64,000 bases of DNA. It comes from Fructobacillus tropaeoli. GTDB lineage: Bacteria; Bacillota; Bacilli; Lactobacillales; Lactobacillaceae. The position numbers and the translations under genes are program-made. The DNA lies in assembly GCF_001047135.2 (NCBI RefSeq), contig NZ_DF968080.1, positions 124,001-188,000 on the forward strand. Reading direction: 5' to 3'. Shown here piece after piece: positions 9,697 through 63,319 of the stretch. How positions within the stretch are numbered: the first letter of the stretch is position 1; every line of letters begins with the position of its first letter. The notes beneath the pieces were generated by a model that made no database searches, was not told the DNA's origin, and was given only the letters and a program-made list of their open reading frames with translations.

Positions 9697-10713
9697 TTAT
9701 GACTCGACTTGATCATACTTTGACAGGTTCATCAGCTTCCAAATCAGCAAAGCAACTGCCCAGGCAACAACGAAAATCACCACCAAAATAATGCCTAATT
9801 CGTTGAAATCGAGCGCACCCGCCCACTTGGTCAAGAAGTTGTCCCAGTGGAACATGGCTGACATTGATTGAATCAAGTCGACAACACCGATAAAGCCAGC
9901 AGCAATAATCGAGATACTTGTCAAAATCAGGTTAAAGTAAACCTTGCGGTAAGAAGTTGAAATAATCCAGTTGTAGGTTGTTGACATGAAGAAACCATCC
10001 AAAGTATCCATCAAGCACATCCCTGCGGTAAAGAACAGAGGCACGGATAAGATGGCATACCAGGGAACACCAGCAGTCGTTGCCGTTGCCGATGTGGCTA
10101 AGACCGCCACCTGCGTTGCCGTGTCAAAGCCCAAACCAAACAAGAAACCAACAATCGCCACTTGCCAGTTGTGGTTCACTAGGTTCAACATCTTCATGAA
10201 CAAGCGGTAAATCCGTGATTCAGCGGCTAATTGCTCGTTATCGGGATCCAAAGCCGCCTTCTTCATTTGCCGAAAATTTTTCCAAATACCACGCAGGATA
10301 AAGGTATTAAAGCAAGCCAGCATTAACAACATCACAGCGGCAATCATGGTCCCAAACATCCCACCAACGGACTCCAAAATTGGCAAAGAATGATCGGCCC
10401 ATTCAACAAAAAGTACCGTCAATAGGGTCAACAACACCACGACCAAAGAATGCCCGAAGGAGAAGGAAAACCCAACCCCTCTCGTATTCTTGTGATCATT
10501 TAACATTTTCCGGGTCATATTGTCGATAGCGGCAATGTGATCAACATCAAAGGCGTGGCGCAGGCCAAAGGTAAACGAAATCCCGGCCATCCCGAGTAAC
10601 TGAGGCTACTTGCTCATCCCCGTGCTCAAAAACACGATGCCCAGAGCCAAGATACCCAAAATAAAGGCCCCATAACGGCTAATGTCGAACTTCCAACTGT
10701 GACTGTCTGTCAT
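9697..10713 (-). pseudogene. NiCoT-family nickel/cobalt transporter interrupted by an in-frame TAG
   Basis: Reading from ATG 10713, which has a good GAGGAG 8 nt upstream, gives MTDSHSWKFDISRYG and a first transmembrane segment. An amber codon follows at 10606-10608 (codon 36), then PQLLGMAGISFTFGLRHAFDVDHIAAIDN continues in the same frame to 9697. HAFDVDHI corresponds to the HoxN/NixA metal-binding motif HAFDADHI in the second helix. Without the stop the protein would be about 338 residues with about eight helices. Restart at ATG 10590 would lack helix 1 and has no clear ribosome-binding site, so the gene is probably inactive. No urease or hydrogenase genes are nearby. Confidence 0.85.
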
Positions 10714-10750: not shown

Positions 10751-11551
10751 TCAGTAATAAAAACCATGGCGATAATCAAAACTCGTAAAAATCTGTGCCA
10801 TGTTGGCCATAATTTTGTCGATATCAAGTCCTTTCCGAATCACGATTGGGCATGGCTGGATGCCCACCTGATTGTTTTGTTCTGGAATCAAATGTCCATT
10901 TTCGTCAACCATCGAAACCATTACCCCTTGCTCGTAGCGGGTGTCGATGTTCTTATCCGGTTGAATTGAAGCCACGTAATCATCGGCCTCAATCACCAAA
11001 TCAGCGGCTTCTTCGATTCGTTCACCAATACCAGTAACCAAGCCACGGTTCCCCTGCCCTGATGGGTTGGCAGAACTAGCAAAGGCAAACTGGTGGTGTT
11101 CTTCCCACAATGCCTTGGCAATTTGTTCGCTTGGCCGACCAAATTTGATGACAAAGCAACTCGTCTGTCGTTGATCCATCATCAATTCTTGGCAACCATC
11201 ATCTGGCAATTGGGCCATCCCCGTTTTCTTCCAGGGCAAAATGCAGCCCAACAAGATGTCTTGGTCCCAATGCTTTTGGTACAGATCTCTGATTTCTGGT
11301 GTCATTTCGGCCAATTCTTCCAACTCGGCCATGGAACCACACAAAACAACGCCGGGCTTATTGCGCTTACGGTTCTTGGCGGAAAACTTCCGTTTCAAGC
11401 CTGCCTTATCCGTGGTCATAATGATGTAACCAACCTTGGTTGGGCTGACAATCATCCCCTTGCCCGCCTGCAAAATGGTCATGGCCTCTTCTTGGACATG
11501 CCCGTTCCAGTGCACTTGCTTCGTCATCGTCTTTGTCATCGTTTCAGTCAT
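10751..11551 (-). CDS. YrdC/Sua5-domain protein
   Basis: This 266-residue protein has the YrdC fold, which binds ATP and nucleotides and in TsaC/Sua5 makes threonylcarbamoyl-AMP for tRNA t6A. Visible elements are the SPTKVGYI segment, a basic cluster (KFSAKNRKRNKPGVVL, about 55-70) and FASSANPSGQGN (about 155). It is diverged from typical TsaC and lacks the Sua5 domain, so it may be a paralog with another role. The first 12 codons are three 12-bp repeats, each starting with ATG, behind GAGGAG. It lies 37 bp upstream of the broken NiCoT gene. Confidence 0.7.
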   Translation of the reverse strand: MTETMTKTMTKQVHWNGHVQEEAMTILQAGKGMIVSPTKVGYIIMTTDKAGLKRKFSAKNRKRNKPGVVLCGSMAELEELAEMTPEIRDLYQKHWDQDILLGCILPWKKTGMAQLPDDGCQELMMDQRQTSCFVIKFGRPSEQIAKALWEEHHQFAFASSANPSGQGNRGLVTGIGERIEEAADLVIEADDYVASIQPDKNIDTRYEQGVMVSMVDENGHLIPEQNNQVGIQPCPIVIRKGLDIDKIMANMAQIFTSFDYRHGFYY

Positions 11552-11646
11552 TTTCTTCTCCTCTTTTTGAACTAACGCTCGCTGTCAAACGCTTATTGTG
11601 GCGTCGACTTTTTTGCGATTGCTGATTTTACCTGCAAAAATTCCTT

Positions 11647-11664
11647 GGATGCCAGCCGGCATCC
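11647..11664 (-). terminator. Weak hairpin after the MFS gene
   Basis: A perfect 7-bp stem, GGATGCC/GGCATCC (11647-11653 and 11658-11664), is followed on the minus strand by AAGGAATTTTTG, so the T-run is offset. It may be a weak terminator or a processing site between the MFS and YrdC genes. Confidence 0.4.
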
Positions 11665-11697
11665 CCCTCGTTTCGATTGCTACATTTACTTGGTTGC

Positions 11698-13002
11698 TTA
11701 CTCGATGGCCACTTTTTTCGTTTCCGGTCCAAAGATGGCCACGATCACCGCCGCAATCAATGCAACCGCTGCGATAAACCAAAAGATAACGCTGGCCTTC
11801 AAATAAGTCAGGGCAAAAGCTACCACATAAGGCGTAAAGACCGTTAAAATCTTGGCCACAGCGTTGGCAATTCCGGCACCCCGAAAACGAAAAGTCGTTG
11901 GAAAAAGCTCAGCAACGTAAACACTGACAATCGAAGCCATCAAGACATAAATCGCCAGCACTAAGATAAAGCCGACAACCATCACAGCTTCTGCCTGACG
12001 TTGGTTGGCATAAATCAGTCCCCAAACCGCTGTAAAAATAAAGGTCGTGATGATGACTTTTTTCCGACCCAGCCAATCGACCAAGCTAGCACCGAGCAAA
12101 GCACCAAATGGGGCGCCAACCATCATCACGGCCGAGAAAACCAACGAGTGGGCTACTGCAACTCCCTGCTTAACCAACAGGGTTGGCATCCAGGAAGTAA
12201 AGGTGTACTGGACCAAATTAATAGCACTGACCGCAACAATCGCTACCAACAAACCTCGCTTAATACTGGTTGCTTGCTTTGCCGGTTCTTCTACCGTGCT
12301 TTGCTGGCTGCGGTCTGTCAGGCCATCACGGTCCTGATTTAACCGATCAATAATGACCGCCGCTTCCTGATAGCGTTTCTTAGAGATCAGCCACCGTGGT
12401 GACTCTGGGAAACCACGACGAACAATCCAGAGTAATAGGGATAACCCACCAACGATGACAAACATCATCCGCCAGCTGTAATGTGGAATCACGTAAGCTG
12501 ACAACAACAGGGTCAGTGGAGCGGCTGAATTGGCAATCACTGATACCAAACCGGACCATTTTCCTCGACTAGCAATCGGTGCAAATTCGTTGACCAGTGA
12601 AAAGCCCGTTACGATTTCAGCACCCAAACCAATGGCGGCCAGAAAACGCAAGACAATCAAGGTCCAAATATTTGGTGCCAAGGCACCCAAGAGGGTCATT
12701 GACCCAAAGAGTAGCAAGTTACTTTGATAAGCAATTCGGCGTCCAAAGTGGTCACCGATGTAGCCAGCTAACAGGGAACCAAAGAAGAGGCCCATAAAAC
12801 CAGCGGAGAGAAACATCGAACCCTGTGCCAGGGTTGCAAAGTGATTTTTCAACAAAACGGAGTTAACGGCACTCACTAGGTAGACATCAGCCGCATCCAA
12901 GATCATCCCGGCAGCGACTAGAGTAAATACCTTATAAAACAACGGGCTAGCGCTACTAGTGTTCATCCGACTTTCTAATTGACTAACGCTTACTTGATCC
13001 AT
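11698..13002 (-). CDS. MFS transporter at the 3' end of the leu operon
   Basis: This 434-residue major facilitator has about twelve hydrophobic helices. It carries the MFS loop motif GDHFGRR after helix 2, a RFLAAIGLGAEI segment and ESPRWLI before the central loop, typical of the sugar-porter and aromatic-acid:H+ symporter branches. The start is ATG 13002, preceded by GAGGGGG; an upstream in-frame ATG would run far into leuD. The gap to the leuD stop is only 10 nt, so it is cotranscribed with leuABCD. A branched-chain acid or related cargo is a guess from that context. The substrate is unknown. Confidence 0.85.
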   Translation of the reverse strand: MDQVSVSQLESRMNTSSASPLFYKVFTLVAAGMILDAADVYLVSAVNSVLLKNHFATLAQGSMFLSAGFMGLFFGSLLAGYIGDHFGRRIAYQSNLLLFGSMTLLGALAPNIWTLIVLRFLAAIGLGAEIVTGFSLVNEFAPIASRGKWSGLVSVIANSAAPLTLLLSAYVIPHYSWRMMFVIVGGLSLLLWIVRRGFPESPRWLISKKRYQEAAVIIDRLNQDRDGLTDRSQQSTVEEPAKQATSIKRGLLVAIVAVSAINLVQYTFTSWMPTLLVKQGVAVAHSLVFSAVMMVGAPFGALLGASLVDWLGRKKVIITTFIFTAVWGLIYANQRQAEAVMVVGFILVLAIYVLMASIVSVYVAELFPTTFRFRGAGIANAVAKILTVFTPYVVAFALTYLKASVIFWFIAAVALIAAVIVAIFGPETKKVAIE

Positions 13003-13012
13003 GTTTGCCCCC

Positions 13013-13597
13013 TCACACCAGCGCCTGACGCTGGTCTTCATATGCCTGAATTTGGTCGGCATACTTCATGGTCAAATCGATGTCATCTTCACCCTTCAAG
13101 AACTTTTCCTTCCACTGGGGATTGATATCGAAATGGAAGTGACGATCGTCCATGGCAACATCCTGGTTGACGAGGTCAATCGTGATGGCTTCATCCGCAG
13201 CAACCGTCATCAAGATATCGCGGTCTGCCTTTGGCAACACAATCGGCAAAAGGCCATTTTTCGTTGCGTTCATATAAAAAATATCGGAAAAGCTACCAGC
13301 AATCACGGCCCGGAAACCAAAATCAGTCAAGGCCCAGACAGCGTGCTCCCGCGAGGAACCACTGCCAAAGTTATCGCCGGTAATTAAAATCGAAACACCC
13401 TGATGGTCTTTTTGGTTTAAGACAAAGTCCGGATTCTTTTGGCCATCAGCAAGGTACCGCCAATCCCAGAAAAGGTACTTGCCAAAGCCCGTCTTTAAAA
13501 TATTTTTCAAAAATTGCTTGGGTAAAATCAGATCAGTATTGACACTATTAGCATCAATAACGGCTGCCCGTCCCACTTCTTTCACGAATGACTGCAT
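13013..13597 (-). CDS. leuD: 3-isopropylmalate dehydratase small subunit
   Basis: LeuD (194 residues, normal size) is the swivel subunit that isomerises isopropylmalate with LeuC. Conserved features are [11 protein letters not shown] near residue 20, [13 protein letters not shown] (about 72-84) and [15 protein letters not shown]. The start is ATG 13597, one base after the leuC TAA, so translation is almost certainly coupled; longer in-frame starts lie inside leuC and have no family support. Confidence 0.96.
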
Positions 13598-13598
13598 C

Positions 13599-14996
13599 TT
13601 AGACCCCCATTGCCGCTTCGGCTGTGTCATGAATCTTGGTAATGTCCACAAAGTGACCGGCAATGCCGGCAGCTGCCACCATTGCTGGTGAAGCAAGGTG
13701 CGTCTTGGACCCCTTCCCTTGTCGACCAACAAAGTTTCGATTCGACGTTGAAGCGGCATGCTTGCCGGCTGGAATTTTATCCTCATTCATTGCCAGGCAG
13801 GCTGAACAACCAGGTTCGCGCCACTGGCAGCCAGCATCCAAAAAGATTTGCGCCAGACCATCTTTCATTGCCCGATTGCGAATTGCCCGGCTGCCTGGCA
13901 CAATCCAGGCCGTAATGTTTGCTGCCAGATGCTTGCCTTTCATGATCTTGGCAGCCTCCACCAAATCTTCATACCGCGAATTTGTGCAAGAACCAATGAA
14001 AATATAATCGAGTGGAATTTCCTCGGCAGCCATCCCCGGATGTAAGCCGATATAGTCATAGGCCGCCTGGTCATCTGAATTCGAAATAGCCGGCGTCTTT
14101 TCGTCAACGGCCATCGCCATTCCAGGATTCGTTCCCCAGGTCACCATTGGTTTCAAATCACTAACATCAAATTCAATCAAACGGTCAAAGGCTACTTCAT
14201 CATCCGTTTTCAGTTGTGACCAAACTTCCTTGGCCTTTTCCATGTCCTTTGGCGCTCGCTTACGGCCCGCCAGATAATCAAAGGTGGTTTGGTCTGGTTG
14301 GACCATCCCGGTCTTCGAACCAGCCTCGATGCACATATTACAAATTGTCATCCGTTCTGGCATCGACAAATTTTCAATCGTTTCACCAAAGAATTCAATT
14401 GCATAGCCAGTCCCAAAGGAAACCCCATACTTGGCGATTAAAGCCATAATCAAATCCTTGGCATAGGTATTGGCGGGTAAGTGCCCGGTAACCTTAATGC
14501 CCATTGTTTTTGGTTTGACTTGCCAAATCGTCTGGGTGGCCATCACGTGTTCAACTTCCGAGGTACCGATTCCAAAGGCAATGGCACCAAAAGCGCCATG
14601 GGTCGCGGTATGAGAATCACCACAAACAATCACCTTGCCAGGTTGAGTCAATCCCAATTCTGGGCCAACAACGTGGACAATCCCCTGGTCCTCATCCCCC
14701 ACGGATGCCAAATCAACACCAAATTCCTGACAGTTCTTTTCCAGGGTGGCCATCTGCAACCGTGACATTTCGTCTTGTACGCTCTCAAGGTTCTTGGTGG
14801 GCACATTGTGGTCCATCGTTGCAAAGGTTAAATCAGGCCGCCGCAAGCGCCTGTTACTCGTCCGTAACCCGTCAAAGGGTTGCGGTGACGTCACCTCATG
14901 CACGAGGTGCAAATCAACGTAGAGCAACTGTGGCTGCCCCGGTTCACCAGCGATAACGTGTTGGTTCCAGATTTGATCAAAAAGTGTTTGGCTCAT
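13599..14996 (-). CDS. leuC: 3-isopropylmalate dehydratase large subunit
   Basis: LeuC (465 residues) carries the [4Fe-4S] cluster for the second step of leucine synthesis. Signatures are [22 protein letters not shown] (first cluster Cys) and [11 protein letters not shown] (the other two). The start is ATG 14996 with GAGGGGG 7 nt upstream. Its ATG overlaps the TGA that would end an unshifted leuB (ATGA), the expected arrangement in an intact leu operon. Confidence 0.97.
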
Positions 14997-16056
14997 GAGA
15001 AAACCCCCTCTTGCATCGCATTCATCACTTGCTCGGTCACCTCTTTGGTAGTCAAGTCCCACCCATATCAGGTGTTACCTGCCCCCGTCGGATTGTTAAC
15101 TCAACCGCCTCATCGATTTGCTTGGCTAATTTTTCCTGGTGAAAACTTTGAGACAGCATCAGAGAAACCGTTTTAATCATCGAAATGGGATTGGCAATCC
15201 CCTGACCTGCAATATCGGGCGCCGAACCATGAATAGGCTCGTACATTTTTGGACCGGTCGCACCAGCAGAAAGCGATGGAATCTGACCAATCGTGCCAGT
15301 AATTTGAGCGGCCTCATCGCTTAAAATATCACCGAACAAATTTGGAGTAATCAACACATCAAACTGAGTCGGATCCGCGACAATGGCCATCGCAGTGGCA
15401 TCAACATAGCGGTAATCGACCGTCACTTCAGGGTAGCGTTGCGCCACAGCTTGGCCAACTTCCCGCCAAAGCTTTGAGGTCGCCAGCACATTCGATTTAT
15501 CAACAACCGTCACGTGCTGGCGGCGGCTTTGCGCCAAGTCAAAACCATAAACCATGATGCGCTCAATTTCGGAGCGGCTATAGTACATCGTGTCGATTGC
15601 CTGATCAAATGTTTTTGACCGTGGTTCACCAAAGTAAGCACCAGAGGTTAACTCGCGCACAATCACGAAATCTGTTCCGCGAACAATCTCAGCCTTCAAA
15701 GGTGATTGGTCAATTTGTGAATCGGCAACGACCGTCGGCCGGACGTTGGCAAAGAGTCCTAACTCAGACCGCAGTGCCAACAAGCCATCTTCCGGCCTTT
15801 TTGGACAGGCATTCCACTTTGGCCCGCCAATAGCACTCAACAAAATGGCATCGGCGCGCTTGGCTTGGTTAATCGTGTTATTCGGCAATGGTTCGCCGAC
15901 CTGATCAATTGCCTGACCACCAAAGGGCAAAAATCCTGTTTCATAAGTAAAATCAGTTCCCTGTGTCACAGCGGCCAAGACATCCAAGCCGGCCGCCATA
16001 ATTTCTGGCCCAATACCATCGCCTTCGAAGACAACAATCTTTTGACGATCCATCAT
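14993..16056 (-). pseudogene. leuB: 3-isopropylmalate dehydrogenase with 3' frameshift
   Basis: LeuB oxidises and decarboxylates 3-isopropylmalate with NAD. The open frame (16056-15052) gives 334 residues with FEGDGIGPEI, GGPKWN, VRELTSGAYFGEPR and the substrate/NAD region EPIHGSAPDIAGQG, ending in TPDMGGT and a premature TGA at 15052-15054. Adding one G to the GGG at 15058-15060 restores [19 protein letters not shown] and then QEGVFS, ending at the TGA that overlaps the leuC ATG. About 20 C-terminal residues are therefore lost. This could be a real one-base deletion or a sequencing error. The start overlaps the leuA stop (ATGATG). Confidence 0.85.
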
Positions 16057-17222
16057 TTTGCCACCACCCCTTCTGCTAACTCCTGTTCAGCTAAGGCAAT
16101 CAACTGGTCATCGGAAACAATGCTAACTTTTTCCGCTAGCGTCTTAAAAGCTGGGAAAAGATGGGCAATGTTTTCAATCGGCATCTCATAACCCAACTCT
16201 TTCAACTTGGCTGAAACAGCATGCGATCCTGATAACTTGCCCAATGGCATGGAAGCACTGGCACCAACCATGGCTGGTGACAAGATTTCGTAGGTCGCTG
16301 GGTTTTTCAAGTACCCATCCTGGTGAATGCCCGATTCATGGGCAAAGGCATTTCGACCAACAATCGCCTTGTTCGCCGCAATCTTGACCTTCGAATAGTT
16401 TTCAACTTGGTGGGCGATTTTAGTGGCTTGCTGCAAGTTCAAGGCAATAGTTTGCTGGCAGTGGTCACGGCGAACCTGCAATGTGACGGCCGCTTCAATC
16501 AAGTCAACGTTGCCGGCTCGTTCACCAATCCCATTGATGGTTCCTTGAATTTCTGTTGCGCCATGGGCGACCCCCGCCAAGGCGTTGGCATTGGCCAAGC
16601 CCAAATCATTGTGCGTATGGGTTGACCAAGTCACCTGGTCAAAGGCTTGGACATGGTCATGAAGGTAGTCAAATAGTTCACCATATTCTTCCGGCAAATC
16701 ATAACCAACCGTATCGGGAATATTGATGGTCGTGGCCCCAGCGGCAATGGCAGCGTTAATGCTTTCGACCAAGTAATCCGGTTCCGTCCGAGTGGCATCT
16801 TCTGGTGAAAAGATAACCTTGTCGACGCGACTCTTGGTGTAGCTAACGTCTTCTTGAATCTTTTCAATAATCTCTGCCTTAGACATCTTCAACTTGGTTT
16901 CACGGTGAATTGGCGAAGTCGCAATAAAGACATGAATGACTTGGTGCTTGGCCTTGTTGGTGGCTGCAATCGCAGCGTCAATATCCTTTTTCACCATCCG
17001 AGCTAGGCCTACCACTTCTGCCTCTTGAACCGTCTCACTAACGGCCTCAACTGCTTCGAAATCTTCCGCGGAAGCTGCCGGAAAACCGGCTTCAATCGCA
17101 TCAACGCCAAAATTTTCAAGGCTTTTAGCTAAAGCGACCTTTTCGTCAATCGAGAAATTAACACCAATTGTTTGTTCGCCATCACGTAATGTTGTGTCAT
17201 AGAATCTAATCTGGTTTTTCAT
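16053..17222 (-). CDS. leuA: 2-isopropylmalate synthase, short form lacking the regulatory domain
   Basis: LeuA condenses acetyl-CoA with 2-ketoisovalerate, the first committed leucine step. The TIM-barrel domain has RFYDTTLRDGEQ (about 6-17), the metal-binding STHTHNDLG (about 200) and NAFAHESGIHQDG (about 285-297), followed by the small linker subdomain. The protein ends at 389 residues; classical LeuA has about 510, with a C-terminal allosteric LeuA-dimer domain that binds leucine. No remnant of that domain exists, because leuB begins at the leuA stop. Feedback inhibition by leucine is therefore unlikely, and control probably falls on the upstream attenuator. Confidence 0.92.
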   Translation of the reverse strand: MKNQIRFYDTTLRDGEQTIGVNFSIDEKVALAKSLENFGVDAIEAGFPAASAEDFEAVEAVSETVQEAEVVGLARMVKKDIDAAIAATNKAKHQVIHVFIATSPIHRETKLKMSKAEIIEKIQEDVSYTKSRVDKVIFSPEDATRTEPDYLVESINAAIAAGATTINIPDTVGYDLPEEYGELFDYLHDHVQAFDQVTWSTHTHNDLGLANANALAGVAHGATEIQGTINGIGERAGNVDLIEAAVTLQVRRDHCQQTIALNLQQATKIAHQVENYSKVKIAANKAIVGRNAFAHESGIHQDGYLKNPATYEILSPAMVGASASMPLGKLSGSHAVSAKLKELGYEMPIENIAHLFPAFKTLAEKVSIVSDDQLIALAEQELAEGVVAK

Positions 17223-17244
17223 ACTCTTCCCTCACTTTGTGAAT

Positions 17245-17460
17245 AAAAAAACGGGCTAATCAAAATGACTAGTCCGCAAAGAGAAAAAGATGAATTGCCT
17301 TGGCTAGCCATTAGGATGTTCCCCCTAACAGCCAGCTAAAAACCTTGGCTCGTTAGGGGTTGCCCAACAAGCCAAGCAAGTTTGCGCTGTGCATGGTCTT
17401 AACAATCATTACGCCTTGGTTCTTCATGATTTTTCTCCTCCCTTAGATTCGTTATAATCA
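17245..17460 (-). promoter_or_regulatory. leu operon transcription attenuator
   Basis: After the leader peptide the minus-strand RNA can form competing stems. The CTTGGCTTGTTGG segment of the peptide region can pair with CTAACGAGCCAAG. The CCCCTAAC..GAGCCA arm can pair with TGGCTGTTAGGGG (17322-17334 with 17346-17359). CTGGCTGTTAGG (17324-17335) can pair over 12 positions with CCTAATGGCTAG (17304-17315). A final stem (17252-17261 with 17267-17276) is followed by seven T. This is the classic layout for ribosome-mediated attenuation by leucyl-tRNA supply. Confidence 0.8.
17353..17427 (-). CDS. leu leader peptide (24 residues)
   Basis: GGGAGGAG followed by ATG at 17427 opens a 24-codon frame. 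The peptide contains NLLGLLGNP near its end, so four leucine codons (TTG, CTT, TTG, TTG) occur within five codons, plus Val and Ile earlier. Its stop codon (17353-17355) lies inside the first large attenuator hairpin. Stalling of a ribosome at the leucine codons would shift the alternative stems downstream. Too short for routine gene finders. Confidence 0.8.
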   Translation of the reverse strand: MKNQGVMIVKTMHSANLLGLLGNP

Positions 17461-17488
17461 TGATAATACCTTGCTCATGAGATTTCAA
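17460..17488 (-). promoter_or_regulatory. Promoter of the leu operon
   Basis: -35 TTGAAA (17483-17488), a 17-nt spacer and -10 TATCAT (17460-17465) on the minus strand, about 30 nt upstream of the leader peptide start. No clear terminator separates it from the suf operon, so readthrough from suf is possible. Confidence 0.6.
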
Positions 17489-49332: not shown

Positions 49333-50565
49333 TTAAGCCATCAATTCTTGCACATCACGAGCAATCATCAATTCTTCATCAGTTGGCACAACTAAAGTCT
49401 TAATTTTGGCATCAGCAGCTGAAACATCAGCCTCTTCACGGCAACCAGTGTTCTTATCCTGGTCAATCTTGATGCCAAAGTAACCTAAGCGGTCAACGAC
49501 TTCTTCTCGAACCCAATCAGCATTCTCACCAATACCGGCAGTAAAGACCAAAGCATCAGCACCACCCATTTCAGCAATGTACTGACCAATGTAACGAACA
49601 ACACGGTCAACAAAGATTTTAATTGCCAAATCAGCCTGTTCGTTGTCCTGACGGGCAGCCAAAAGATCACGCATATCACTTGAGACCTGTGAAATTCCCT
49701 GCAATCCTGATTTCTTGTTCAAGATTGTCAACATGTCTTCATTTGACAAGTTTTCCTTGGTTTGGATAAAGTTTACCAATGAAGCATCCACATCCCCTGA
49801 ACGAGTCGCCATCGTCACACCTGCTAATGGTGTGAATCCCATTGATGTATCAAATGACTTACCGCCCTTAACAGCCGTAATTGAAGCACCGGCACCAAGG
49901 TGCAAGGTAATCAACTTCAAGTCCTTCAAATCCTTGCCTAAAATGTCAGCAGCACGGCCGGCTACATAGCGATGTGAAGTTCCGTGAGCACCATACTTAC
50001 GTGCACCATACTTTTCATAGTATTCATAAGGCAATGAGTAAAGGTAGTTCACCTTTGGCATTGTCTGATGGAAAGAAGTATCAAAGACGGCGACAGAAGT
50101 TGCGTTTGGCAATAACTTTTGGAAGGCACGGATGCCCAATGCGTTGGCTGGGTTGTGCAATGGTGCATAATCAGCCAATTCATCAATCTTAGCTAAGACA
50201 TCATCGTTCACCAAAACAGACTTGTCAAAGTATTCACCACCGGCAACAACGCGATGACCAACACCAACGATTTCGCTAAAGTCTTGGATAATATCCAATT
50301 CTGACAACTTTTCAAGCATCAAGTTAATGGCAACTTGGTGGTCCTTGATGGCGGTAACGGTCTTAAACTTAGCCTTGTCACCAGATACCTCAACGTCAGC
50401 ATTCTTGGCCGCTTGATCATTGGCCGCAAACTTGATCGTTACAATGGCATCATCCATTCCGATTCGTTCAATTAACCCTTGGGCGATTACTTGCTCTTGT
50501 GGCATCTCTAAGAGCTGAAACTTCAATGAAGAACTACCGGCATTCACTGCCATAATCTTTGCCAT
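49333..50565 (-). CDS. ackA: Acetate kinase
   Basis: AckA (410 residues) interconverts acetyl phosphate and ADP with acetate and ATP, the ATP-yielding step of heterolactic metabolism. Signatures are VNAGSSSLKFQL (about 5-16), HRVVAGGEYF, the catalytic region FDTSFHQTMP, THLHLGAGAS-like LHLGAGASITAVKGG and FTAGIGENADWVRE. AGGTGGA precedes the ATG. It lies downstream of comG and the methyltransferase gene, an order common in Firmicutes. Confidence 0.98.
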   Translation of the reverse strand: MAKIMAVNAGSSSLKFQLLEMPQEQVIAQGLIERIGMDDAIVTIKFAANDQAAKNADVEVSGDKAKFKTVTAIKDHQVAINLMLEKLSELDIIQDFSEIVGVGHRVVAGGEYFDKSVLVNDDVLAKIDELADYAPLHNPANALGIRAFQKLLPNATSVAVFDTSFHQTMPKVNYLYSLPYEYYEKYGARKYGAHGTSHRYVAGRAADILGKDLKDLKLITLHLGAGASITAVKGGKSFDTSMGFTPLAGVTMATRSGDVDASLVNFIQTKENLSNEDMLTILNKKSGLQGISQVSSDMRDLLAARQDNEQADLAIKIFVDRVVRYIGQYIAEMGGADALVFTAGIGENADWVREEVVDRLGYFGIKIDQDKNTGCREEADVSAADAKIKTLVVPTDEELMIARDVQELMA

Positions 50566-50607: not shown

Positions 50608-51612
50608 TTACTTTAGTTTACCCCAGGCTTGGATATCTTGCAAAAATTCTTGCAAGGCCTTTTGGTCCTTAACGGAAGGATACTGTCCCATCAAAACTTC
50701 TTGCTTTGGCAGCGCATCTTTCTTCCGCAAAACCAAGAAAGCTTTCGCCTGTTCTTGATTTTGGAAATACTCTGCTGGCAGTGACAAAAATGCCTTTAAT
50801 TGAGCCTTTTGTGAGAATAATTTCAGGATTGACTCATGCCGTGGCCCTGTTAATAAATCATTTGGCACGATAAGATAAATCCAACCATCATTCTTCACTA
50901 AATCTAATGATTTTTCAATCATTAAATAATGAGCATAAGATTGGCCATCTTGTTCTGAAAAGGCTGTGACAAAGCTTTCCGGTGCTTCTTTCGGGTAGTA
51001 GCCGATTGGTAAGTCACCAATCACAACATCAGCAGGCGCGACTTCCTCTTTTTTCAAGCCAACAACATCCCCCAAAAACAGTGTTGGGTCTTCTTTCAGT
51101 GCAGCTACCAATTCACTGGCCAAATCAAGCTGGCCTTCATCGTTATCAATCCCAGTTAAATCGTGGATTGAAAGTTCATGACGACTAGAGCTTTCAACGA
51201 TTGTCCATAGGAGGTTGCCAGTGCCAATAACCATGTCAGTGATACTCGTTTGTTCACTAGGATTAGCTGTCTGGTAAATCAGCTCGCCCAAAAGATAACC
51301 AATACCATCTGGGGTTAACTGAAGGTTTGCTGGTACTTTATCCTCTCGATCAGCTTTCAAAACCAAAAGTTGTAAGATATTACGTTGGTCGCTGAAAGAC
51401 AATTTTGGCCAGTCAATCTCTTCTAACGACTGTAATGCCTTTTTAGAATCATCAGCCAATTGGTCATGGTCGGAGCTAAGAATCTCTTTTTTATTCAGCC
51501 TCTCTAAAGCCATGACGAGGGCTTCTCGATTGGTCGTTTTTTCTTGATTTTTCACCGTCACTACGGCTTGATCAATTTTTTCAAAATATGCAGGAATTTG
51601 TCGATTTATCAT
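50608..51612 (-). CDS. YtxK-like class I SAM-dependent methyltransferase
   Basis: This 334-residue protein resembles the Firmicutes YtxK family, usually encoded between comGG and ackA. It has the N6-methyltransferase fold: a SAM site DMVIGTGNLLWTIVE (about 122-136), an acidic TGIDNDEGQLDLA and the catalytic-type motif GDLPIGYYP (about 200), a variant of DPPY. The first 80 residues are helical. The substrate is unknown. Its linkage to comG is conserved, but a role in competence has not been established to my knowledge. Confidence 0.82.
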   Translation of the reverse strand: MINRQIPAYFEKIDQAVVTVKNQEKTTNREALVMALERLNKKEILSSDHDQLADDSKKALQSLEEIDWPKLSFSDQRNILQLLVLKADREDKVPANLQLTPDGIGYLLGELIYQTANPSEQTSITDMVIGTGNLLWTIVESSSRHELSIHDLTGIDNDEGQLDLASELVAALKEDPTLFLGDVVGLKKEEVAPADVVIGDLPIGYYPKEAPESFVTAFSEQDGQSYAHYLMIEKSLDLVKNDGWIYLIVPNDLLTGPRHESILKLFSQKAQLKAFLSLPAEYFQNQEQAKAFLVLRKKDALPKQEVLMGQYPSVKDQKALQEFLQDIQAWGKLK

Positions 51613-51649: not shown

Positions 51650-51970
51650 CTAAGGGGCTAAAAGTGGTCGCCAGTAATCCTGATGTTTATTAGTAATTTT
51701 AATCTGCTTTTCTCCCGATTCAATTAACCAAGGATCACCCTGAATTTGGCCAGATTGTTGGTTATCTTGGTAAAACAATCGTGATGCTTCAATTTGCCTT
51801 GTATCGATGGTCGTCGTTTCCAACAATAATAATTGGCTATGCAGCTTTTGGTGAAAAATTTTTGTCTGTAAAAAGAACAGCAAGCCAATGAGTGTCAATG
51901 CCAAAATGGTCGGTAACAGTAAGTAGGCTGGCTGACGGTTTCGCTGCTGGCGTGGCTGATTATTAAACAT
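51650..51970 (-). CDS. comGG: ComGG-like pseudopilus protein
   Basis: This 106-residue protein has one hydrophobic segment (about 16-34, LLLPTILALTLIGLLFFL) after a basic start and a variable C-terminal part. It lacks the prepilin GFTxxE motif, as ComGG proteins often do. The call rests mainly on its place as last gene of the comG series, 3 nt after comGF. Confidence is moderate. Confidence 0.65.
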   Translation of the reverse strand: MFNNQPRQQRNRQPAYLLLPTILALTLIGLLFFLQTKIFHQKLHSQLLLLETTTIDTRQIEASRLFYQDNQQSGQIQGDPWLIESGEKQIKITNKHQDYWRPLLAP

Positions 51971-51973
51971 CTT

Positions 51974-52423
51974 TTACCCCTCTTCTACAATGGCCTGTTT
52001 CGTATTAGGCAAAAAAAGTGTGCCGCTCGCTTTCTCATGCCCCCGAGAAAAAACAGTCAAAAGCTGATAGGTTCCAAAATTATCAATCCGTAAATCATCA
52101 ATCCCGTGTAGCAAGAGCACGCGACCATGATGAGTCCCATCCAAAACTAAGTCATGCTTAGCAATTTTCAACGTAACCGGATCGCCAATGGTCTTCTTCA
52201 GCTGAATTTCATGCAATTGAACTTGATCCAGTTGATAGTTTTGCCGACCCAACTGTGTTAAGGCTGCCTGAAAATCAGTCTGTACATCTTGCGTCTGCCC
52301 CTTTTTACTTTGTGGCAAAATGACCATTAACGCTTCAAAGACCATCGCTGCCACGACGAGGGCCATGATTGCTTCCACCATGGTAAAGCCGTTCCGGCTA
52401 CTTTTACTTTGAACTGCCGTCAT
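51974..52423 (-). CDS. comGF: ComGF-like minor pseudopilin
   Basis: This 149-residue protein has a prepilin N-terminus: basic MTAVQSKSSRNG, then FTMVEAIMALVVAAMVFEAL, a type IV pilin-like processing site (G/F, Glu5) and hydrophobic helix. The C-terminal half resembles the ComGF/PilW-like beta domain. ATG 52423 is chosen because AAGGAAGAAG precedes it. It overlaps the end of comGE. Confidence 0.85.
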   Translation of the reverse strand: MTAVQSKSSRNGFTMVEAIMALVVAAMVFEALMVILPQSKKGQTQDVQTDFQAALTQLGRQNYQLDQVQLHEIQLKKTIGDPVTLKIAKHDLVLDGTHHGRVLLLHGIDDLRIDNFGTYQLLTVFSRGHEKASGTLFLPNTKQAIVEEG

Positions 52424-52673
52424 GATTGGCTTCTTCCTTTTCCTTTTGCTTTTGGTCAACAAAAGACTGCCATCTCTCTAACGCCTTTCTTTTTTCCTGG
52501 TTGGCCGCCTTATTCTGCAAAATCAGTTCTCCCTGCTTTTTCTGATAGTTGCGCAACGTTTCTAGTTCAAAAACAACCACACCAGTAATTAGCGTCAGTG
52601 CCATCACCCCCTCAACGAGGGCAAATCCTAACGATTTTCTAGACTTTCTCGAAACGATAGGTACCACCTCCAA
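52404..52673 (-). CDS. comGE: ComGE-like minor pseudopilin
   Basis: This short pseudopilin (up to 89 residues) has SLGFALVEGVMALTLITGVV as processing site and hydrophobic helix, followed by a charged coiled tail rich in Lys/Glu (QKQKEKEEAN). The start is uncertain: no ATG is available, and TTG 52673 or GTG 52667 lies inside the end of comGD next to GGAGG. It overlaps both neighbours, typical of comG operons. Confidence 0.75.
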   Translation of the reverse strand: MEVVPIVSRKSRKSLGFALVEGVMALTLITGVVVFELETLRNYQKKQGELILQNKAANQEKRKALERWQSFVDQKQKEKEEANHDGSSK

Positions 52674-53037
52674 ATTGGAAAATAAGACGCCAGTTTACTT
52701 GGCCCTGGCGCCAGGAAATATGACCGGGGGCCACATAGCCACTCGGCTTAATCACGATTTTTGCTGTCTGATCAACTTTACTTTTTACTGGGTAAGAAAG
52801 CACTTCTTGACCAATCACCAACTGGTCTGATTGAAAATCGAGAATACTTTCAACCTCTTTTGCTTGTGCTAATAGACGGGCTCGTTGAAAATGGGCAGCA
52901 AATTGCTGTTGAAAATCTGCAAAACTCTGCTGATTTGGCCTCGGCCGTAAGGCTAATCCAAGCCCAAGCAAAAGTGCTACCAGACTTAGGACAATCACGG
53001 ATTCGATCAAGGTAAAGGATTTAAATTTTAGCTTCAT
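52639..53037 (-). CDS. comGD: ComGD-like minor pseudopilin
   Basis: This 132-residue pseudopilin opens MKLKFKSFTLIESVIVLSLV; the processing site carries Ser-Phe rather than Gly-Phe. A hydrophobic helix follows, then FQQQFAAHFQRARLLAQ and a beta-rich C-terminus. ATG 53037 overlaps the end of comGC; an in-frame TTG lies three codons upstream. The absence of Gly at -1 is unusual for prepilin peptidase substrates but occurs in ComGD proteins. Confidence 0.85.
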   Translation of the reverse strand: MKLKFKSFTLIESVIVLSLVALLLGLGLALRPRPNQQSFADFQQQFAAHFQRARLLAQAKEVESILDFQSDQLVIGQEVLSYPVKSKVDQTAKIVIKPSGYVAPGHISWRQGQVNWRLIFQFGGGTYRFEKV

Positions 53038-53569
53038 GACCTGCAATCACAATTTTCAGTGCCTTAACTTTTTCAAGCTGTTCCTTGGTCAAGTAGTTTT
53101 CCTTTGCTAAATCATCCATTGTGACCTGTTTCTTTTCTGGGTGGTCATTAACATACAAATCAACCTGTGTCTGTACAGTGGCGACCATTGCCTTTGCATG
53201 GGTTTGCTGCGCCTTATCTCGTTGTTGCGTTAAATTCGGCAAAATCAGTAACATCAAAAGACCAATAATGAAGAGTACTACCGTCGCTTCAATCAATGTG
53301 AAACCGTTTTTCTTCGCTGCTATCCGCCGATTTTTTGCTCGGACTACTGCATAGCAAGCCTTTGATTGACAAATTTTACGATGTTCACGTTTAAGCCAAA
53401 AACGTTTGTGGGGTTGAAAAAAGGACCGCTGGTTGAATAAACCAATCTGCATCGGATGGTTCATCGGATGGGACTGATGGTGACAGTAATCCCGGGGCCT
53501 TCCAGCCAATCGAGACCGTCCCCCCGTTCCAGTTTGTGTGTGCTTAACAAAGTCAGATGTGTGTGTCAT
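53021..53569 (-). CDS. comGC: ComGC major pseudopilin with an unusually long N-terminal leader
   Basis: ComGC forms the competence pseudopilus. The processing and assembly region is unmistakable: KKNG then FTLIEATVVLFIIGLLML, followed by QTQVDLYVNDHPEKKQ and a short C-terminus. However, the frame that overlaps the comGB stop (ATGA) runs 89 residues before the G/F cleavage site. The nearest in-frame ATG is still 50 residues upstream, and normal leaders are about 6-15. The extra stretch is His/Arg-rich (HHQSHPMNHPM, FQPHKRFWLKREHRK) and matches nothing I know. Confidence 0.85.
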   Translation of the reverse strand: MTHTSDFVKHTQTGTGGRSRLAGRPRDYCHHQSHPMNHPMQIGLFNQRSFFQPHKRFWLKREHRKICQSKACYAVVRAKNRRIAAKKNGFTLIEATVVLFIIGLLMLLILPNLTQQRDKAQQTHAKAMVATVQTQVDLYVNDHPEKKQVTMDDLAKENYLTKEQLEKVKALKIVIAGHEAKI

Positions 53570-54600
53570 ATCGACATTCCTCCTAAATTTTTATACAGCG
53601 GTAATAGCATTGCGAGGTATAACAAAACAATGGTCAGTCCAATCAGGGCAAAAAAGAGCGGTTGAACGAGGCCTAATAATCGGCTGACTTGGCGGTCAAA
53701 CCGTTGAAATTCGCTTTTGGCATAGTAAGTCAAGTAGGTACCAAGTACTGGCCCGGTAAATCCCCTATCTAAATAAGTCGCTAGTGGCTTTTTCAAATAA
53801 GATTGATTGCCAATCCAACTTTGCAAAGTTTGACCGCTTTGCACGGCATCTTGTGCTCGCTTAGCAATGGCCACAACCAGTCCGTTTTTCTTAGCGGATA
53901 AGGCCGCAAAACGATCAATCACATTGGGCAGCGTGTGGCCTGCTAACAGCAAAATCCCCAGATGTTCTGCTAGCAGATAAGTTAAGAGCGTCTGCATCAG
54001 CGTGCCCAAAAAAGGGACCCGAGTGACGACTTGAATTCGTTGTAGTGGTGCTAAACGCTTCAGTAAGAAAATCGAAATAATAATCATGACTAAAACAAGG
54101 CCAAAGAGAAAAGCTAAGCCATGCAAATAAAAGAGAGCAGGATTGCTGCCTGGACCTTGCCCTCCCTTTTGTCCGGCCGACAAAGCATGAAAAATGGGAT
54201 AAAGATACGTCTCCATCCCCACAACCAGGGATAATAAAAAAACCAATAAAATCACCGGATAAGTTAGAATCTGGCGGAGCTTTTGTTTGTAGCGCAACAC
54301 TTGGTCAAAGTTACTCGCCAAAGCGGTCAGCGTTTGGTCAAAATTACCATGTGACTGACCCAAATCAAGATAAATTCCAACCGAAGGACTTAAAACCTTT
54401 CCCAGACTTGTAGCTAATGGTTGGCCATGCTCCAACTGGCCACGGATGGTCTGTAGCCTTTCTTGCCAACCTGGATGGGCACTTGCTAAAACATCGAGAC
54501 TCAATGATAAGGCATAACCAGATGCCGTTAACTCACCAAGCTCAGCCAAAAAAAGAACCTGGTCACTTTCAGAAAAACGTATTTTTCGTTGCGGACGCAT
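53566..54600 (-). CDS. comGB: ComGB, type II secretion F-domain membrane protein
   Basis: ComGB (344 residues) is the inner-membrane platform of the competence pseudopilus. It contains two GspF-type domains, each with an amphipathic helical bundle, and three TM segments (about 115-135, 160-185 and 315-340). Typical stretches are LTASGYALSLSLDVL, LPNVIDRFAALSAKK and YLDRGFTGPVLGTYL. ATG 54600 has AGGAGG 8 nt upstream, inside the end of comGA. Confidence 0.92.
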   Translation of the reverse strand: MRPQRKIRFSESDQVLFLAELGELTASGYALSLSLDVLASAHPGWQERLQTIRGQLEHGQPLATSLGKVLSPSVGIYLDLGQSHGNFDQTLTALASNFDQVLRYKQKLRQILTYPVILLVFLLSLVVGMETYLYPIFHALSAGQKGGQGPGSNPALFYLHGLAFLFGLVLVMIIISIFLLKRLAPLQRIQVVTRVPFLGTLMQTLLTYLLAEHLGILLLAGHTLPNVIDRFAALSAKKNGLVVAIAKRAQDAVQSGQTLQSWIGNQSYLKKPLATYLDRGFTGPVLGTYLTYYAKSEFQRFDRQVSRLLGLVQPLFFALIGLTIVLLYLAMLLPLYKNLGGMSI

Positions 54601-54603
54601 CAA

Positions 54604-55563
54604 TTAAACCTCCTGATTTCCTTGTTGGTAGCGTTTTAAATTTTCGGCATAGGGACGGTGATGAGTTACTTCACCCGCCTGCCAGTTAGCCACCCCGCAC
54701 ACAACCCACAGCTGACCATCTAAGTCTGGAAGCAAGCGCTGATAAACTGTCTTAACTAAGGCTTGGTTCAGTAATTGACGGTCAAGGCCAAGGTTGAGCA
54801 AACGATCAAAAACTGCCAGTTCAGAATTGGCATGCAAAGTACTCAACACCAAATGACCAGCTAGGGCTGCTTGAAGGGCGGCCTGAGCAGTCTTGGCATC
54901 ACGAATCTCGCCAATCACTAATAGATCTGGCCGGTGACGCAGGGCCACCTTGATTAAGGATTGGTAATCAATTCCTGCTTGTTCGTTGACCTGCAGTTAC
55001 AAAAAAGCTGGCTGGTAGATTTCAACCGGGTCCTCAACCGTTAAGACAACTTTGCCTGGTGACCAGACATCCAACAAGCGATAAAGGGTACTAGTCTTAC
55101 CTGACCCTGTGGGGCCGGCTACCAAGTAAAGACCGGCACTGATTTTTTCGGCAACCAAGTCTGCAAATGTTGCTGGATCAAACCAGCGGTTTTGTGACAA
55201 ATCAGGGTAAATCAACCGCAAAACGGCACTTTCTTGCCCCAAAAAGTCGCCAACAGTTGAAACGCGAACGAAGCCCTGGCCAAAATCAAAGCGGCCCAGT
55301 TGTGGCCGCCGGCTCTCGGCCAAATTTAAACCCGCCCGGTACTTCACAACAGCTAAGGCTCGTTTTCCAAAATCTGCTTCCAGCACTGCCAGGATTCTCA
55401 CTTGACCCAAAATTTGCGCTCGTACCTGGTAATTACCACCTTCTGCCGGTAAAAAATAAAAGTCCGTTACCTTTTTCGTCTGCCCCCAGGATAGGACTGC
55501 TTGAATCCAATCAGCGGGGTCTGCTCGTTCATGTTCGGGCCAATTGGCCAATTTCTTGATCAT
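54604..55563 (-). pseudogene. comGA: ComGA assembly ATPase interrupted by an in-frame TAA
   Basis: ComGA is the cytoplasmic ATPase that powers the competence pseudopilus. The frame from ATG 55563 gives 188 residues, including Walker A GPTGSGKTS and the Asp box TVEDPVEIYQPAFL, then a TAA at 54997-54999. The same frame continues at once with LQVNEQAGIDYQSLIKVAL, RHRPDLLVIGEIRD (Walker B) and the His box LSTLHANS to 54604. Relatives read FLQLQVNE here, so CAA to TAA is the simplest explanation. The truncated product lacks Walker B and would be inactive. Without the stop the protein would be 319 residues, normal for the family. Confidence 0.92.
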
Positions 55564-61223: not shown

Positions 61224-61309
61224 AAAATCCTCTTTCATGGTCAAACGAGCACTCACTCGCTTGGCAAGTTCAGCCCTGTTTTATCACATCGGTGACCTGA
61301 GGCCAACCT

Positions 61310-63319
61310 TTAGCGGCCGGCCCGTTTCTTTAATTTCATAATATTATCGCGAATTTTAGCAGCCGTCTCAAAGTCTAAGCCCTTTGCCGCCGCCTTCATT
61401 TGGCTAGTGAGGTTTTCTAAAATTTCAGTCTGGTCTGATTTTGGCAAATCAGCAAAGTCAACTTGCGTCAAGTCAACGTCCTCAACCTCTTCGGCAGCCT
61501 TACTTGCACTAATTAGGTCGCGAATTTCCTTTTTAATTGTTTGTGGCGTGATGCCGTGTTCCTTGTTATACGCCATCTGAATGTCACGACGACGAGCCGT
61601 TTCATCCATGGCTTCCTGCATGGCCCTTGTCACCTTATCGGCATACATAATCACGTGGCCGTTCGCATTTCGAGCAGCACGACCAATCGTTTGAATCAAC
61701 GAGCGCGGATTACGCAAGAAACCTTCCTTATCAGCATCCAAAATGGCCACCAAAGAAGTTTCGGGGACATCAATTCCTTCACGCAACAAGTTAATGCCGA
61801 CCAGCACATCGTACTTGCCCAAACGTAAATCACGGATAATGGCTGTTCGCTCAAGCGTCTTGATATCGGAATGGAGGTAGGCAACTTTGATGCCAACATC
61901 CTTCAAATAATCCGTTAAATCCTCTGACATTCGCTTCGTCAGCGTTGTGATAAAGACACGCTCATTTCGTTCAACCCGCAGGTTAATTTCACCCACTAAA
62001 TCATCAATTTGCCCCATCACTGGCCGAACTTCAATTTCCGGATCCAACAGGCCGGTTGGTCGAATGATTTGCTCAACAATATCACGTTTTGGTACCCGAG
62101 AAAGCTCATAGTCCCCTGGTGTAGCCGACATATAAATAATTTGGTTGACGTGCTTCTCAAACTCTGGCAGTTGCAAAGGGCGGTTATCCAGTGCTGAAGG
62201 CAAACGGAAACCATAATCAACCAACGTCTGCTTCCGGGCGCGGTCACCATTGTACATCCCACGAACTTGTGGCATCGTCACGTGACTTTCATCCACAACA
62301 ATCAAAAAATCATCGGGGAAGAAATCTAAGAGGGTAAATGGTGGTTCGCCCTCTTTGCGACCGTCCATCCAGCGTGAATAATTCTCGATTCCAGATGTAA
62401 AGCCCATTTCATTCAACATAGCCAGGTCATATTCGGTTCGCTGCTTGATTCGTTGAGCTTCAAGAAGCTTGCCCTCTTTTTCAAATTCCTTGACCTGGTC
62501 TTCCATTTCTTGGCGAATACCAACTAAGGCTTCCTTCATCCGTTCATCATCGGTCATAAAGTGCTTCGCTGGGAAAATGGCGACATGGTCACGTTCTGAA
62601 ACGACCTGACCCGTCAAAGCTGAAATTTGTCGAATGCGGTCAATTTCGTCACCGAAAAATTCAACCCGCATGGCCAATTCATCCTGGGAAGCCGGGAAAA
62701 TTTCAATCACATCGCCTCGCACCCGGAAAGTTCCACGCTGAAAATCAATATCGTTACGGGTAAATTGGATGTCAATCAGATCGCGCATCAATTGATTACG
62801 ACCATATTCGTTACCAACCCGCAAAGAAATCACATGGTTTTGGTATTGGTGCGGATCACCCAAACCAAAGATTGATGAGACTGAGGCAACGATAATCGTA
62901 TCGTTGCGCTCAAACAGTGAAGCCGTTGCCGAATTCCGCAACTGGTCAATTTCATCGTTAATCGCGGAATCCTTTTCAATAAAGGTATCCGAAGAAGGCA
63001 CATAGGCCTCTGGCTGGTAGTAATCATAGTAGGAAACAAAGTATTCAACCGCATTATGTGGGAAGAATTCCTTTAACTCAGAATAGAGCTGGCCAGCCAG
63101 GGTCTTGTTGTGTGACAAGACCAAGGTTGGCTTATTGTTTTGGGCAATCACATTGGAAATTGTGAATGTTTTCCCTGTTCCGGTTGCCCCGAGCAAAATT
63201 TGCTCCTTGACGCCATCTTTTAAACCCTTCACGAGTTTATCAATCGCTTTCGGCTGATCACCAGTCGGTTGGTACTTTGAAACAACTTCAAAGCTTTGAT
63301 CTTTTTGCGGTGTAATCAA
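61310..63319 (-). CDS. uvrB: UvrABC system protein B, TTG start
   Basis: UvrB (669 residues) is the helicase-like damage verification subunit. Motif I is [16 protein letters not shown], the beta-hairpin region follows ([12 protein letters not shown]), then [27 protein letters not shown] and QTIGRAARN; the C-terminal UVR domain binds UvrC. The start is TTG 63319 because GGAGG lies 7 nt upstream and the protein then opens [20 protein letters not shown], as expected; the upstream ATG at 63391 overlaps the promoter. Confidence 0.97.

Follow-up and report, generated by a model that had tools for sequence, protein, structure and literature searches.

Oenococcus oeni is a relative of Fructobacillus. 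Its competence genes, comGA included, decay by frameshift and by gene loss; like F. tropaeoli, it is a lactic acid bacterium with decaying competence genes, according to the accessible text of two reports (PMC6498615, PMC4847254). There the decay shows up among the strains of a single species, whereas the Fructobacillus comparison described here covers three neighbouring lineages, one genome each. A second described case is Piscirickettsia salmonis, in which comEC is interrupted by transposable elements (PMC12955456, available portions). The likeness is to Fructobacillus sp. EFB-N1, where a DNA-uptake channel gene also appears to be cut by mobile DNA; P. salmonis differs in being a fish pathogen of another phylum, and the lesions of F. 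tropaeoli are point mutations and small indels. For Fructobacillus, including F. tropaeoli F214-1T, the accessible text of PMC4696137 concludes that reductive evolution has taken place in specific niches. The main text of that report, as available, was found to use none of the words competence, transformation or pseudogene; nor was competence found in that of PMC9934391, the source for KI3_B9 as a Fructobacillus sp. from the oriental cockroach. Among the matches listed in open-licence PubMed Central, none described a loss of competence in Fructobacillus, and no paper there was found to pair the genus with competence genes.

F. tropaeoli, a flower bacterium, is a new case of an already known phenomenon, competence decay, as in O. 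oeni. What it adds is a piecemeal loss of natural transformation, in which neighbouring Fructobacillus lineages carry different lesions of one pathway; over the three lineages these are of different types (nonsense, frameshift, deletion and IS insertion). One can then ask which components of the pathway go first, and whether selection favours their loss or is indifferent to it. A near-complete comG operon, moreover, does not imply competence.

The window is the whole stretch of DNA analysed, 64,000 nucleotides long, and corresponds to bases 124001-188000 of contig C3 in the F. tropaeoli genome used here (1,684,039 bases in 101 contigs). The comG operon and its flank contain the following features:

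49333 to 50565, minus strand: ORF call flanking the comG operon; ackA candidate, taken from its sequence to be presumably acetate kinase
50608 to 51612, minus strand: gene of the N6-type DNA methylase fold (PF02384), downstream of comG
51650 to 51970, minus strand: probable comGG, by position only
51974 to 52462, minus strand: comGF, open; NF041002, E 2.6e-8, under the cut-off
52404 to 52673, minus strand: comGE, open; NF041013, E 1.5e-4, under the cut-off
52639 to 53046, minus strand: comGD, open; NF040982, E 5.1e-12, under the cut-off
53021 to 53569, minus strand: comGC, major pilin, open; NF040999, 77.7 bits, over the cut-off of 75
53566 to 54603, minus strand: comGB, open; NF041012, E 3.5e-65, 220.5 bits, cut-off 240
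54604 to 54996, minus strand: 3' remainder of comGA, conserved and still in frame, with Walker B (GEIRD); untranslated barring readthrough or restart
54997 to 54999, minus strand: premature TAA, codon 189; Gln in 12/12 other genus genomes examined
54997 to 55563, minus strand: comGA 5' part, 188 codons, Walker A (GPTGSGKT) and Asp box (EDPVE) kept; terminates at the premature TAA

The comGA gene runs from 55563 to 54604 on the minus strand as a 319-codon frame (frame 1) whose translation is interrupted once, by TAA at codon 189 (54999-54997); the natural TAA terminator lies at 54606-54604, and the halves are called as two separate ORFs of 188 and 114 aa. One uninterrupted full-length ATPase frame is thus lacking. 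The other marks of ComGA are there: the T2SSE/PilB-type ATPase fold, the three motifs (which we take to be Walker A, Asp box and Walker B), and the place of first gene in a comG operon, followed by comGB to comGF. When X is put in place of the stop, the translation matches Pfam T2SSE (PF00437) at 185.2 bits against a cut-off of 24.9; its best NCBIfam match is ATPase_ComGA (NF041000) at 280.5 bits, below the curated cut-off of 300.

The initial annotation had described a single in-frame nonsense codon between the Asp box and Walker B, a one-base change to TAA where relatives have Gln, in sequence conserved and in frame on both sides. Each of these points was confirmed. No other codon interrupts the frame; alignment to the pilus ATPase PilF places EDPVE (177-181) before the stop and GEIRD (218-222) after it; comGA is present in all 13 genus genomes, and by tblastn the 12 others align straight through the site, every one with Gln, the stop being derived in the F. 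tropaeoli lineage; and the codon differs from that of EFB-N1 by a single base, a substitution with no indel. A frameshift in place of a nonsense codon was ruled out, as a single frame runs throughout. Stops in the comGA matches of two other genomes (G010 and G008) lie in a divergent C-terminus, past query residue 290, and were left uncounted. A truncated ComGA of 188 residues would retain Walker A and lose Walker B. Judged by eye, the next start codon of the 3' part (GTG, 54948) has no Shine-Dalgarno sequence.

The genes downstream are open, as had been noted from the sequence: comGB to comGF with family matches, of which only that of comGC exceeds its curated cut-off, and comGG by position, the candidate at 51650-51970 having no match among the NCBIfam and Pfam profiles. 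The true start of comGC is probably internal to its ORF. In EFB-N1, comGF stops a few codons sooner than in F. tropaeoli. The description 'otherwise complete' therefore stands for the operon; it fails for the pathway, whose comC and coiA genes, at other loci of the genome, are broken.

Comparison with EFB-N1 bears on the age of the stop. The comGA values are dN 0.020, dS 0.217 and dN/dS 0.09, the ratio being near those of comGC (0.07) and comGG (0.08) and above that of uvrA (0.02); the other neighbours give 0.18 (comGB), 0.24 (comGF), 0.26 (comGE) and 0.78 (comGD). The low ratio is due in part to an unusually high dS, the highest among the genes compared (others 0.04 to 0.18). Synonymous divergence of comGA is high relative to its neighbours, 0.22 from EFB-N1 and 1.25 from KI3_B9; one cause may be recombination with DNA of more distant origin. 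Four amino-acid replacements in addition to the stop fall on the F. tropaeoli branch and eight on the EFB-N1 branch, with two ambiguous; codon by codon, the F. tropaeoli branch has 19 synonymous changes and 2 non-synonymous ones, the stop being counted with the latter, and 15 changes are ambiguous. By these measures comGA carries no excess of damage or of amino-acid change, and it appears to have been under constraint until recently. The stop is probably young, because dN/dS is low and replacements on the F. tropaeoli branch are few; the earlier suggestion of a very recent loss is in this respect supported, with dS raised.

Seen in the window, the stop might be taken for an isolated lesion. 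It is not: comGA is one of three damaged DNA-uptake genes in the genome, with comC and coiA. The GxGD motif of the prepilin peptidase ComC is catalytic; in F. tropaeoli a two-base frameshift, outside any homopolymer, puts the C-terminal part of comC with this motif out of frame, and the gene is open in EFB-N1. An identical out-of-frame deletion in coiA is present in F. tropaeoli and EFB-N1, and the gene is full length in KI3_B9 and in a further genome, G005; being common to the two, the deletion most simply predates their split. Open in F. tropaeoli are comEC, comEA, comFA, comFC and dprA, the names comEA and comFA being presumptive, with position as their basis.

The nearest relatives examined were EFB-N1, from honeybee, and KI3_B9 (G003 and G001 in our set, the strain names being our own deduction); where the window aligns with them, its DNA is 94-95 per cent identical to the former and 89 per cent identical to the latter. 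In EFB-N1, comEC is split: the first part stops where contig C22 begins, and contig C17 opens with the second. Both halves run into one and the same element with rve and HTH_38 domains, which we take to be IS30-like. At the start of C17 a 55-base sequence recurs at 100 per cent in KI3_B9, adjoining an rve/HTH_38 element, and the 554 bases at the start of C22 are 98 per cent identical to the same IS30-like element. Within the EFB-N1 genome the end sequence from C17 gives 28 matches, counting its own. Of these, 17 begin in the opening 84 bases of a contig; among the other 11, C17 is the one contig of known length, and its match lies at the far end. From these contig ends we infer that comEC of EFB-N1 is interrupted by the IS30-like element and that its halves join across it. 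The copy at L165:15685-16704 of KI3_B9 has one end match in that genome, and the element end has no match in the F. tropaeoli genome. KI3_B9 itself has a one-base deletion (a frameshift) near codon 26 of comGA, with a Walker A change from GKT to GKI; its comEC lacks much of its interior and carries an internal stop and frame changes; and its comC has a one-base frameshift of its own, late in the gene. F. tropaeoli, EFB-N1 and KI3_B9 thus each have at least two broken com genes.

Farther out in the genus, comGA is open through its conserved core in all ten more distant species, comEC is open in eight of the ten (with runs of N in G005 and a split in G009), and the six com genes scored by frame length (comGA, comEC, comC, comFC, coiA and dprA) are open in 8/10. 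The comEC of G005 was dropped as a further lesion, the apparent gap being the runs of N. That of G009 (loci L063 and L065, with dprA, each split over two frames) was left uncounted, as the comEC break lies near an A run where a sequencing error is possible; the comEC and dprA splits of that genome could be decay or such an error. A comGA-family match occurs in 249/251 sampled genomes of the family, 215 of them over the curated cut-off, a count of presence and not of intactness. One of the comGA-family matches listed, in G117, has an internal TGA.

The account that best fits these observations, to which we give a probability of about 0.86, is that comGA is a recent pseudogene within a clade-wide, stepwise decay of natural transformation. 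That is, a single substitution would have introduced the TAA into the RecA-like ATPase domain, after the Asp box and before Walker B; translation would yield no more than a 188-residue fragment that lacks Walker B, and the motor of pilus assembly would be lost; natural transformation would be under relaxed or negative selection in the clade of F. tropaeoli, EFB-N1 and KI3_B9, which would be dismantling it piecemeal; and the remaining comG genes would still be open because too little time has elapsed. Against decay speaks the rest of the pathway in F. tropaeoli, which appears mostly intact (comEC, comEA, comFA, comFC and dprA open). Ordinary stepwise loss is most likely, and is preferred over any exotic cause.

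A stronger version supposes that DNA uptake is actively selected against in this clade, beyond mere disuse. It is suggested by three lineages having broken the pathway through unlike mutations and at several points (pilus motor, pilin processing, membrane channel and CoiA), and by the retention of a comGA-family match in nearly all sampled genomes of the family. We consider it rather unlikely. If true, the driver would be that the pilus, or the DNA taken in, is costly to the cell, for example through entry of phages or IS elements in insect and flower habitats.

Of 45 EFB-N1 ORFs comparable in the aligned parts, four were flagged in the window: two artefacts and two clear internal nonsense codons, in comGA and in a nickel-transporter gene. 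The artefacts, EFB-N1 ORFs 61275-62705 and 64409-65677, were rejected as an alignment-edge effect and an overlong start, respectively. In the reverse direction 2/48 window ORFs were flagged in EFB-N1, one an alignment-edge effect and the other comGF. The nickel-transporter gene (NicO by Pfam; 9697-10713, minus strand) has TAG at codon 36 (10608-10606), where EFB-N1 is open; by its sequence, a restart at ATG 10590 is possible.

Over the genome, 888 ORFs of KI3_B9, each 100 aa or longer and drawn from the first million bases and three com stretches, were compared with 1,187,289 of the 1,684,039 bases of F. tropaeoli; 600 were comparable, 76 gave poorer matches and 212 none. On the F. tropaeoli side of the 600 there are nine nonsense and five frameshift cases. 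Two of the nine resemble shadow ORFs or genes with a wrongly placed start, but were kept in the Fisher count; the remaining seven comprise five TAA, one TAG and one TGA. Single-stop genes are thus roughly 1 per cent of those compared, and no one codon is special. On the KI3_B9 side there are six nonsense and 11 frameshift cases among 591 comparable ORFs (17/591), a higher general load of broken ORFs than in F. tropaeoli. In F. tropaeoli, 3/12 com genes are broken versus 11/586 other ORFs (Fisher p 0.002), an enrichment that covers this species alone and rests on three genes, comGA among them having prompted the search; without comGA it is 2/11 (p 0.022). Among the background ORFs flagged as broken, some probably owe this to being shadow ORFs or to a misplaced start. 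The 12 genes counted are dprA, coiA, comC, comGA, comGB, comGC, comGD, comGF, comGG, comEA, comFA and comFC; two KI3_B9 comEC fragments were left out of the count, and comGE is under the length limit.

With one genome per species, the comGA stop may be polymorphic within F. tropaeoli. It might then be a strain-level or culture-collection mutation, comGA having been lost very recently, even in the laboratory, in a species otherwise competent; the single F. tropaeoli genome would allow this, as would the lack of any excess of replacements on its comGA branch. The comC frameshift and the coiA deletion shared with EFB-N1, however, indicate that the pathway is damaged independently of comGA, and make an otherwise competent species very improbable. 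The two accounts are in part compatible: a pathway in decay may include a comGA stop that is confined to one strain.

An assembly or sequencing error, with the stop absent from the organism, had been raised from the start, and has in its favour that comGA is otherwise fully conserved, that the genome of F214-1T is a draft short-read Velvet assembly according to the accessible text of PMC4696137, and that a run of six T ends two bases before the stop site. Because of that run, error receives slightly more weight, and pseudogene decay slightly less, than either would otherwise have. The available text of the same report gives 513-fold coverage on the Illumina Genome Analyzer II (PMC4696137), which makes an error unlikely if the window is from F214-1T. 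The change is, besides, a substitution and not an indel, and clear nonsense affects only 2/45 of the EFB-N1 ORFs checked in the window. On balance we regard error as highly unlikely.

Functional readthrough or suppression of UAA, yielding full-length ComGA, is hardly credible: conservation on both sides of the stop would suit it, but is accounted for by recency; nonsense codons in other genes are TAA, TAG and TGA; and comC would stay broken even with suppression. The suppressor tRNA that had been proposed as a check was sought with ARAGORN on 30 loci, a 31st gene lying inside one of them; none of the 31 tRNA genes found has an anticodon pairing with a stop codon, in a set that lacks tRNAs for Ala, Gly, Asp, Ile, Pro, Met and Phe, so the check is in part answered and gives readthrough no positive support. 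A change of genetic code is ruled out, as the other single-stop genes carry TAA, TAG and TGA.

Two further observations lie outside the comG operon. A second sigma-70-type factor (L263, G000:C7:73966-74175) is a 215-aa open frame in F. tropaeoli and EFB-N1 and one of 203 aa in KI3_B9, with no match in G005 by the same search; from its sequence it is possibly ComX/SigH-like. Within the window, the segment from about 10868 to 17484 has no alignment with EFB-N1, save for about 340 weakly similar bases. It contains a transporter-like ORF and ORFs of leucine-biosynthesis type, two of which were tested by Pfam; the leu names are presumptive, given from the sequences.
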